From NCBI GenBank assembly GCA_947460345.1, contig CANHGM010000001.1, positions 168,518 to 232,517 on the forward strand: a DNA stretch of 64,000 bases, read 5' to 3'. Of the stretch, positions 22,074 to 25,533 are shown one piece after another. The stretch's first letter is position 1. Every line of letters begins with the position of its first letter. Source of the DNA: Bacteroidota bacterium (GTDB lineage Bacteria > Bacteroidota > Bacteroidia > UKL13-3). The notes beneath the pieces were generated by a model that ran no database searches, was not told where the DNA came from, and was given only the letters and a program-made list of their open reading frames with translations. A program made the translations under genes and the position numbers.

Positions 22074-23390
22074 CTATCTCAATGTAACAAATTTTTGGCT
22101 AAATTCAGAACCATCATTACATAAAACCCTAACAATAAAAACTCCTGAAGGCCAATGAGGTACTGCAAATGTTAAGTGATCTTGGGTAAGGTTATTGTAT
22201 GAAACCAAAACTTTCCCATATATATCAGTAAGCTGAACATCAAACTCATTAACTTCCGCACTTTTATCAATACTTACTTGAATTTGACCAAGAGAAGGAT
22301 TAGGAGTAATGTTTATTCTATTGTTATATGTAATAATATTATTAGAAGGTCTAAACAGCAAAGGCTCTACAGTAATATATTTAGTCAATGTTTTTGAAGC
22401 CATGCATCCTAATTCTTCATCATATATATCAAGTGTAACTATATATGTGCCGGGGTTGGTATATATATGTTCAGGATTTGTTAGTAAAGAAGAATTACCA
22501 TCACCAAAATTCCAAACGCTTTTTATACGTTTTCCTTTAGAGTAGTTAGCAAATAAGACTGCTGAAGGAACTATATTACTACTTTGGATAAAATCTGCTT
22601 CAACTTCTAATTTTTCAACTTGAGCAATTAATGTATCGGTAGCAACACAACCATTAAGCTTATATAAATAAACCATTGTATGCTCGCCATTGCCAGCTAA
22701 TTCAGGATAAAACATATTGCCTCTGATACCTTTACCAAACCATTGGCCTCCAAATGGCTTTCCGTTAAGTTTAATCGCACCTGCATCAATACATGTTCTA
22801 AGGTCATTGCCTGCATTACAACTAACAGTGTTTTCTATGGTTATTTTCCCATCGTATATAAACTGATCGCCACAAGAATTATTAGCATAAATTTTATATG
22901 AATATTTACCAGGCATGGTATAAGTGTGTCTGGCTTCAGAATCATGAATATCCATCATATCATCACCAGTCCATATAAAATTTAAATCGCTTGTATTACC
23001 TATAAATTTGGGTTTAAGAAGTACGTCCGAGCATTCTTTTATTTCACTTTCTACTTTAAGTAATACTGGCTTGGTATAATTATTATTAAAAGTTGAATCT
23101 AAAGTAACACTGCTACAATTGTTACCGATAACTATTTTGCAAACAACCAAAGAAGCATTCGTAAATCTAACAACTGTATCTAAAGAACCCATTTTGGTTT
23201 TGCCATTTATAGTCCATTGAACCCATGGCGATGAACCATTTACTAACTCTATATGAAACTTGAACTGACCACAATTTAATTTTTGAATTCCTAAAACAGC
23301 ATCAACAGGTATACAATCTGCTTTGCATGTTGAAATTAAATTATAACTAAATACAACAATTAACAGGGATAAATTCAAAAATCTCTTCAT
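22074..23390 (-). CDS. Secreted PKD-domain protein with T9SS type A sorting domain
   Basis: 438 residues from the ATG at 23390 (MKRFLNLSLLIVVFSYNLI, a signal peptide). The open frame extends 27 codons further, but that part reads as leader. The mature region has Ig-like/gliding-type beta domains with many paired Cys, a PKD domain at about 295-360 (VWNFGDGNS ... PEHIYTNPGTYIVTLDIYD), and a C-terminal ~80-residue type A sorting domain (ITPNPSLGQIQVSI, VQLTDIYGKVL, PSGVFIVRVLCNDG, QKFVTLR). It should be exported by Sec, then carried across the outer membrane by the T9SS and displayed on or released from the surface. The strong promoter upstream is divergent from the ECF sigma gene. Confidence 0.88.
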   Translation of the reverse strand: MKRFLNLSLLIVVFSYNLISTCKADCIPVDAVLGIQKLNCGQFKFHIELVNGSSPWVQWTINGKTKMGSLDTVVRFTNASLVVCKIVIGNNCSSVTLDSTFNNNYTKPVLLKVESEIKECSDVLLKPKFIGNTSDLNFIWTGDDMMDIHDSEARHTYTMPGKYSYKIYANNSCGDQFIYDGKITIENTVSCNAGNDLRTCIDAGAIKLNGKPFGGQWFGKGIRGNMFYPELAGNGEHTMVYLYKLNGCVATDTLIAQVEKLEVEADFIQSSNIVPSAVLFANYSKGKRIKSVWNFGDGNSSLLTNPEHIYTNPGTYIVTLDIYDEELGCMASKTLTKYITVEPLLFRPSNNIITYNNRINITPNPSLGQIQVSIDKSAEVNEFDVQLTDIYGKVLVSYNNLTQDHLTFAVPHWPSGVFIVRVLCNDGSEFSQKFVTLR

Positions 23391-23458: not shown

Positions 23459-23491
23459 TTTGCCTAGGCAACTATTTAATTAAGATATTTG
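23459..23491 (+). promoter_or_regulatory. Possible promoter of the ECF sigma gene
   Basis: TTTG (23459-23462), a 21-base spacer and GATATTTG (23484-23491, one mismatch to TAnnTTTG) precede the sigma ATG by 31 bases. It is back-to-back with the PKD gene promoter, so the two could influence each other. An ECF-autoregulated promoter could equally lie here, and its motif would not be recognisable to me. Confidence 0.4.
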
Positions 23492-23522: not shown

Positions 23523-24065
23523 ATGACCGAGCAAGAAATAGTTGAAGGCTGCATAAGAGAAAACATTATTTTTCAAGAAAAACTATACAAAATGTTTTGT
23601 GGAAAAATGATGGGTGTATGTCTTCGCTATATGACAAGCAGAGAAGAAGCAGAGGATGTGTTGCAAGAAGGATTTATAAAGGTATTCGATAAAATCAAAT
23701 CATTTAGAGCTGAAGGCCCAGTAGAAGCTTGGATAAGAAGAATAATTGTAAACTGTGCCCTAAACCATATCAGTAGAAACAAATGGCGAAACACTTCTGA
23801 AGATATAGACTCAGTAAATGAATACGAATTTGCAACAGCTGAGAGCATATCAGACAAAATGAATGCAAACGACTTGTTAAAAATAATTGAGAAGTTACCT
23901 ACAGGATATAGAACAGTATTTAATTTATTTGCCATAGAAGGTTATGGTCATAAAGAAATTGGAGAAATGCTTGGTATTTCTGAAAGTACTTCAAAAACAC
24001 AATATTTAAAAGCCAGAAAATTTATAAGAGAACAAATTGAAGGCAAACAAAATTATCATGAATAA
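23523..24065 (+). CDS. ECF-type RNA polymerase sigma factor
   Basis: 180 residues with the two domains of extracytoplasmic-function sigma factors. Sigma2 (about 20-90) includes REEAEDVLQEGFIKVFDKI and the -10-reading WIRRIIVNCALNHIS. Sigma4 (about 118-170) carries the helix-turn-helix GYGHKEIGEMLGISESTSKTQYLKARK. Region 3 is absent, as expected. It directs polymerase to a small regulon, normally under an anti-sigma factor. The only candidate regulator is the next gene, whose ATG lies inside the sigma gene (8-base overlap), so the two proteins are almost certainly made together. Confidence 0.93.
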   Translation: MTEQEIVEGCIRENIIFQEKLYKMFCGKMMGVCLRYMTSREEAEDVLQEGFIKVFDKIKSFRAEGPVEAWIRRIIVNCALNHISRNKWRNTSEDIDSVNEYEFATAESISDKMNANDLLKIIEKLPTGYRTVFNLFAIEGYGHKEIGEMLGISESTSKTQYLKARKFIREQIEGKQNYHE

Positions 24066-25533
24066 AGAAAACAACTTTGAAGATGTATTTAAAAACGCTT
24101 TTGAAGGCTTTGAAGGTGAGCCATCAAAAGATGTTTGGAATACAATTGCTAAAGACAGGGAAATGAAACAAAATTTGGGGTTGGTTGAACAAACCCCAGA
24201 AAGTGTATTTTCTAAGGTCTTCAATAATTTCACTTCAAATCCATCAAGTGGTGTTTGGTTTGGTATAAAAGATTTTTTAATCAAAAAAATGTTTTACCGC
24301 CGTTTAAAATACTTTTTGTTTTTCTTGTTGTTTGTTGGTGGCATTGCTACCTTGTATTTCAATATCGATTCTTCACCTGTTAAAAATTCATCTACACCTA
24401 AAAACAATAAAAAAGGTTTAGTTGAAAATAAAAAAACTATTGAAATTCCATTTGATAAAATTACATCAACCAACACACCTTCTATAATTTCAACAAATAC
24501 ATACAAACAAGTTCCAACAGAAGGCAATGCTAAAGTTCAAAATATATCTTTAAACAAGACTAATAATAGTAAATATAACAACTCAAATGATTTAAACTTT
24601 ACTTTAAAAGCAAATAGTTTAAATGTAAATAAAGAGCAATCGTCAGACAATGAAGTTTTGATTCAAGATAACTTAGAATTAACAAAAGATGAAAAAATAT
24701 TGACTATTGATAGTGCTAATTTAATCCCAGTAAAAAATGATGGAGTTACTCAATCTTCAAAGACTAAAAGCTTAAAGAATAGCGAACAAAATAAAAACAA
24801 TAAGAAAGTAAACAACTATGTAAAATATACAAAAGAAACAGATATTAATAACGAAGAATCAAAGTTTAAAATTGGTATCATGTCAGGAATAGATTATGGA
24901 AATTTTACATTAAAAGGTGGAAATGAAATATATAAAGATGTGAGGAAAAACCAAGAATTATTCAGACCAACATCTTTCCACAGTGGTATCACATTCTCAT
25001 ATATGATAAACGAACATTGGTATATACAAGCAAATGGAGTTTTTGCTAACCAAGCCATGAATGTTGCTTACAACAAAAAAATAGTTAAACCAGATACTAC
25101 AAGAGATGCTTTGGGTAATATAACAAAAATAGAAAACAAAGTACTATTTAATGTTGACACCAATACTCATTATGCATTTTCTACATTTGAAATTCCATTA
25201 ATGATAGGATATAGGTTTGGAGATAAAAGATGGACATTCCATGCAATGGCAGGTCCTGAATGGAGCTTAATTTTAAGTAAAAGAGGAGGCATGTTGTCAG
25301 CAAGTTCAATGAAAGTTGAGTCTATTGAGAACAATAATATTCCAACAGTTAAACAAATATGGGGCATGTGGTTAGCCATGGGAGGTAGCTATCAAATGAG
25401 CCATCAATATAGTATCACTGTAGAACCAATTTTCAGATATAAATTTAACTCAATATTTAATTCTACCTATCCTGTCAAACAATATAATTATGCAACCGGT
25501 ATAAACTTAGGAATAAGATACCATTTTAATTAA
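24058..25533 (+). CDS. Inner-membrane-anchored protein with C-terminal outer-membrane-type beta-barrel, partner of the ECF sigma factor
   Basis: 491 residues from the ATG at 24058 (8-base overlap with the sigma gene). There is no N-terminal signal peptide. Residues 1-83 are predicted cytoplasmic and contain a degenerate repeat: VFKNAFEGFEGEPSKDVWNTI (11-30) and VFNNFTSNPSSGVWFGI (54-70). KKMFYRRLKY precedes one membrane helix (about 84-101), a positive-inside arrangement. A ~175-residue Asn/Ser/Lys/Thr-rich spacer leads to a ~215-residue beta-rich domain (FKIGIMSGIDYGNF ... YATGINLGIRYHFN) that looks like an 8-stranded PorT/OMP_b-brl barrel and ends in aromatic Phe-Asn. Similar sigma-plus-barrel pairs recur in Bacteroidota and are usually annotated only as outer membrane beta-barrel protein. 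I infer anti-sigma activity for the N-terminus from gene order; it is not shown by a recognised ASD or zinc motif. Convergent with comEC, with a 4-base overlap. Confidence 0.8.
   Translation: MNKENNFEDVFKNAFEGFEGEPSKDVWNTIAKDREMKQNLGLVEQTPESVFSKVFNNFTSNPSSGVWFGIKDFLIKKMFYRRLKYFLFFLLFVGGIATLYFNIDSSPVKNSSTPKNNKKGLVENKKTIEIPFDKITSTNTPSIISTNTYKQVPTEGNAKVQNISLNKTNNSKYNNSNDLNFTLKANSLNVNKEQSSDNEVLIQDNLELTKDEKILTIDSANLIPVKNDGVTQSSKTKSLKNSEQNKNNKKVNNYVKYTKETDINNEESKFKIGIMSGIDYGNFTLKGGNEIYKDVRKNQELFRPTSFHSGITFSYMINEHWYIQANGVFANQAMNVAYNKKIVKPDTTRDALGNITKIENKVLFNVDTNTHYAFSTFEIPLMIGYRFGDKRWTFHAMAGPEWSLILSKRGGMLSASSMKVESIENNNIPTVKQIWGMWLAMGGSYQMSHQYSITVEPIFRYKFNSIFNSTYPVKQYNYATGINLGIRYHFN

Follow-up and report, generated by a model that had tools for sequence, protein, structure and literature searches.

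Introduction

The locus studied here raises the question of whether one protein chain could link the outer membrane to an ECF sigma factor in the cytoplasm. It lies in a 64,000-nucleotide stretch of DNA from a Bacteroidota bacterium (hereafter the window), where the gene of an ECF sigma factor is followed by that of a partner protein (Table 1). In cell-surface signalling of the FecR/SusC type, the sensor is a TonB-dependent receptor that is distinct from the anti-sigma factor. The window pair would resemble such systems in that an anti-sigma factor in the inner membrane conveys an outer-membrane event to an ECF sigma factor, and would differ from them in having the barrel and the anti-sigma domain in one chain. 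The founding paper on Dma1 is said to be that of Pardue et al. (PNAS, 2024, e2321910121). Dma proteins consist, in this order, of an anti-sigma domain, a transmembrane helix, a disordered tether and a beta-barrel; their domains extend across the envelope, reaching both the outer membrane and the cytosol, they control an adjacent ECF21 sigma factor, and Dma1 and Dma2 affect vesicle production via the sigma factors Das1 and Das2 (PMC13088901).

Table 1. Features of the sigma/partner locus (positions in the window) and of a sister gene elsewhere in the same genome
Feature	Position	Strand	Basis
Palindrome TTGCCTAGGCAA over the -35 element	23460..23471	.	Direct sequence inspection
Predicted ECF-type promoter GCAACTATTTAATTAAGATATTTGTC, 29 nt before the sigma start codon	23468..23493	+	Motif match
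ECF sigma factor, Das-like, ECF21-like, 180 aa	23523..24065	+	Sigma70_r2, Sigma70_r4_2, TIGR02985 (below its cut-off)
Dma-like anti-sigma partner ORF, 491 aa	24058..25533 (ATG 24058, stop 25533)	+	Pfam, AlphaFold2, domain order
Anti-sigma motif copy 1, EDVFKNAFEGFEGEPSKDVWNTI, residues 8-30	24079..24147	+	HMM 25.9 bits; helix pair in model
Anti-sigma motif copy 2, VFSKVFNNFTSNPSSGVWFGI, residues 50-70	24205..24267	+	HMM 13.7 bits, outside training set
Single transmembrane helix, residues 85-103	24310..24366	+	Hydropathy 1.93 over 19 aa; helix in model
Disordered periplasmic tether, residues 105-262	24370..24843	+	pLDDT below 50 throughout
C-terminal 8-stranded beta-barrel, residues 270-489	24865..25524	+	PF13568; AlphaFold2; Foldseek
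Own-genome sister anti-sigma-like protein, L047	428-1510 (C41)		CHU_C 2.2e-8

Results

The sigma gene and the N-terminus of its partner

Both open reading frames were recovered at the positions given in Table 1, and the two genes overlap by 8 bases, as the first-pass annotation had it. The sigma protein contains regions 2 and 4 (Pfam Sigma70_r2, 6e-16; Sigma70_r4_2, 1e-14), and among NCBIfam models it matches Bacteroidota ECF families best, with scores below cut-off. The gene at 22074-23390 (-), which runs in the opposite direction to the sigma gene, encodes a secreted protein with PKD and a T9SS tail.

The partner was correctly described at first reading as lacking a signal peptide. The duplicated motif noted near its N-terminus also proved to be real: using an HMM trained on first copies alone, from 84 proteins, the second copy scored 13.7 bits as compared to a maximum of 8.2 bits for 2,020 shuffled N-termini. 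In its conserved form the motif reads P-x-x-x-W-x-x-I, is short and helical, and is common to proteins encoded downstream of ECF sigma genes. Nine ECF21-like sigma genes were found in the organism's own genome, each followed by the gene of a single-helix protein, and the motif is present in eight of the nine; five further ECF sigma genes of this genome (L051-L055) score far lower. Among 101 proteins one copy was found in 72, two in 24, three in 3 and none in 2, counts in which a few of the weaker second matches may be chance. All nearest homologues of the window protein (L002-L005) have two copies. Three tandem copies were seen in L043 (own genome, C16), L027 and L029. The present work thus adds to the description of the family that the copy number of the motif varies between one, two and three.

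A single membrane helix, originally placed at about residues 84-101, was located at about residues 85-103. The 15 residues preceding it carry a net charge of +5, and from these positive residues an N-in, C-out orientation is expected. The AlphaFold2 model, built on an alignment of 23 sequences, has helices at residues 7-16, 24-39, 47-56 and 64-103, with moderate confidence for the N-terminus (pLDDT about 55-80). We infer that this N-terminus is an anti-sigma domain, predicted to hold the sigma factor.

The tether and the C-terminal barrel

The low-complexity spacer reported behind the helix is indeed present and disordered, but its length is about 158-166 residues rather than the ~175 first given. 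It is rich in Asn, Lys, Ser and Thr, and N/S/K/T/Q/E/P make up 68% of its residues. A disordered chain of 160 residues is long enough to span the periplasm. The corresponding tethers of the homologues measure 144-248 aa (median 191), none in the aligned set being shorter than 144 aa, and this conservation of both presence and length suits a continuous span. It argues to some extent against a different arrangement, in which a protease cuts the tether, either constitutively or on a signal as for RseA, leaving barrel and anti-sigma domain separate for part of the cycle. No cleavage site was identified. Nevertheless, single-pass anti-sigma factors such as RseA are usually released by regulated intramembrane proteolysis, and long disordered tethers are sensitive to proteases. 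We therefore regard such processing as unlikely on balance, yet a serious possibility, and one that is not exclusive of a trans-envelope chain, since both can hold.

Structure prediction was run on the protein whose C-terminus had been described as barrel-like, and it yielded eight strands (residues 270-489) that close as an OmpA-like barrel and for the most part exceed a pLDDT of 90. Residues 268-408 match Pfam OMP_b-brl_2 (PF13568; 1.2e-10). The closest solved folds returned by Foldseek are OmpA-like and 8-stranded (OmpA, OmpW and NspA; TM-score to target up to 0.72), and a sequence search of the PDB with the partner protein gave no match. Many homologues end on an aromatic residue, as is typical of outer-membrane proteins. 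Judged from the model, the predicted barrel probably inserts in the outer membrane. The other option is that the barrel-like domain remains in the periplasm, as already considered in the first-pass annotation; it would then form the beta-rich sensor of an otherwise conventional single-pass anti-sigma factor. This finds a precedent in some anti-sigma-like neighbours of the same sigma type, from Pedobacter, Mucilaginibacter and Hymenobacter, which are 226-308 aa long and contain neither barrel nor T9SS domain, so that a barrel is not required for sigma control in general. However, the closure of the strands at high confidence, the outer-membrane barrel after which the Pfam domain is named, the aromatic C-terminal residue of many homologues and the minimum tether length of 144 aa across all aligned ones make a periplasmic location of this domain quite improbable.

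Conserved pairing with ECF sigma genes

Homologues were searched for with the partner protein alone, and open frames of about 460-570 aa were taken as full-length. An ECF sigma open frame lies directly upstream of all 25 full-length homologues (the window protein and 24 others), usually with an overlap of 4-29 bases; the sigma frames of L018 and L029 are truncated at the locus edge, and the L008 partner is cut near a contig end. Stand-alone barrels of 242-276 aa (L014, L017, L022 and L025) have a sigma frame upstream in none of the four cases. A second and independent search started from an alignment of sigma factors, in named genomes. Its taxonomically labelled matches were all Bacteroidota, one record being labelled just 'bacterium'. 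For the approximately 70 assessable ECF21-like sigma factors from named Bacteroidota, the downstream protein nearly always has the motif and one helix, showing that the N-terminal domain does occur beside ECF genes elsewhere. That sigma factor and partner are mere neighbours with no functional link is strongly disfavoured and can be practically dismissed, as the two genes overlap here and lie side by side in all 25 cases, as the published genetics of Dma1/Das1 and Dma2/Das2 (PMC13088901) also speak against it, and as no point was found in its favour.

A promoter motif shared with T9SS genes

The predicted promoter before the sigma gene makes autoregulation probable. The pattern GGCAACTWTT-N10-14-GTC occurs once in the window, against 0.01 expected occurrences. 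Of 111 ECF sigma genes, some of them near-duplicate loci, 23 are preceded by the form GCAAC-N16-20-GTC (0.9 for shuffles, 1 for the reverse strand). A stricter form with CGTC was dropped, being too rare for use (5 of 111 sigma genes). The palindrome at 23460-23471 is not conserved in L002-L005. A weaker -35-like copy (GGCAAA...TTTGTT) that shares this palindrome points at the divergent gene 22074-23390.

In the organism's own genome (3.0 Mb), GCAACTwTT-N10-14-GTC has eight sites, compared to one for the reversed pattern. Three of them belong to the window sigma gene and two other ECF21-like sigma genes (C7 and C16), one to porP followed by gldK, gldL and gldM (L148, C35:4713-9000), three to genes or operons of T9SS-tailed secreted proteins (L144, L145 and L146), and the last to the gene of a CBS-domain protein. 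With the pattern relaxed, a fourth ECF21-like sigma gene joins the list, as does a second porP/sprF-like gene. T9SS genes are present in this genome, with 131 T9SS tails over cut-off, and T9SS-tailed genes at three of the five non-sigma sites, together with the core operon, are above the genome base rate. In a genome of a related genus (G003) the motif is located upstream of porP-gldK-gldL and of porW/sprE (NF052312, 1e-167; loci L193 and L195), and both G003 and G004 have several further sites before genes of T9SS cargo whose tails are of type A or type B. The motif is not enriched in the more distant genomes G035-G038, which limits the regulon claim to this family.

The T9SS promoters may be driven by the window sigma factor and not by any of its eight ECF21-like paralogues. 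With nine ECF21-like sigma genes in the genome, the promoters are not assignable to it, and we rejected the idea that it alone serves them.

Control of T9SS structural genes by ECF sigma factors has parallels elsewhere: the SM6 promoter list of Flavobacterium psychrophilum has gldN, porU and an ECF/anti-sigma pair among its entries (PMC9723704), and SigP of P. gingivalis is activated via the two-component system PorXY (PMC7712824). SigP is not described as being under the control of a barrel-bearing anti-sigma factor, and in the literature searched we found no description linking T9SS promoters to anti-sigma factors of this type. The T9SS-linked regulon is a testable extension of the Dma kind.

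Sister anti-sigma-like proteins

Among 78 downstream proteins, seven contain Pfam CHU_C and seven the NCBIfam T9SS type B sorting domain TIGR04131. In these sister proteins the sorting domain replaces the barrel, the N-terminal motif and one transmembrane helix are kept, and there is no signal peptide. The own genome encodes one of them (L047, Table 1); further examples, likewise encoded beside ECF21-like sigma genes, are L057, L062, L063, L065, L095, L123 and L125. The model of L063 has a mean pLDDT of 46.7, only its C-terminal domain being well predicted. Our literature search returned no description of anti-sigma proteins with T9SS domains. On a more speculative reading, which we consider less likely than not, the type B-tailed sisters, one of them in the own genome, would sense the secretion machine itself. 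A short form of about 236-262 aa, with motif and transmembrane helix but lacking both the barrel and a T9SS domain, was seen in Pedobacter and Mucilaginibacter (L085, L086, L093, L100, L108, L117, L127 and L133).

Discussion

The first-pass annotation proposed that one chain spans the envelope and acts as anti-sigma factor, and this is supported by the conserved architecture and sigma pairing, by the confidently predicted barrel and by a published family with the same domain order. The one-chain trans-envelope design is not new, and we are highly confident that the locus is a member of the Dma family, as judged by domain order and description. Compared by description, the window pair and Bacteroides Dma have in common the domain order, the adjacent ECF sigma factor and the occurrence in Bacteroidota. 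The window protein differs in its duplicated N-terminal motif and in a promoter class linked to T9SS genes, whereas Dma proteins of Bacteroides have been connected with vesiculation (nigD1) and PUL expression. It is very likely that, as a whole, the locus represents a Dma/Das pair whose sigma factor is held by an envelope-spanning partner and serves its own operon and, possibly, T9SS promoters sharing the motif.

In the mechanism that we propose, residues 1-84 of the partner would retain the sigma factor in an inactive state at the inner membrane, probably via the two tandem copies of the helix-P-x-x-x-W-x-x-I motif. One helix would cross the inner membrane and the disordered tether of ~160 residues the periplasm, and the OmpA-like 8-stranded barrel would sit in the outer membrane, serving as sensor or anchor. 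Candidate triggers, at the cell surface or in the outer membrane, are a ligand, the assembly state or tension. The signal could be relayed along the chain, by pulling or conformational change, or by proteolysis of the chain, setting the sigma factor free. Once free, the sigma factor would transcribe the operon that encodes it, together with genes that have GCAACTwTT-N10-14-GTC promoters; in this lineage such genes may include those of the T9SS core and cargo.

The most useful new leads are the promoter class linked to T9SS and the sister anti-sigma factors with T9SS domains. A single chain across both membranes would be a very direct way of reporting outer-membrane events to the transcription machinery. 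Its occurrence in a T9SS-bearing lineage, with a motif common to porP-gldKLM and porW, offers a hypothesis for how secretion may be coordinated with the state of the cell surface.
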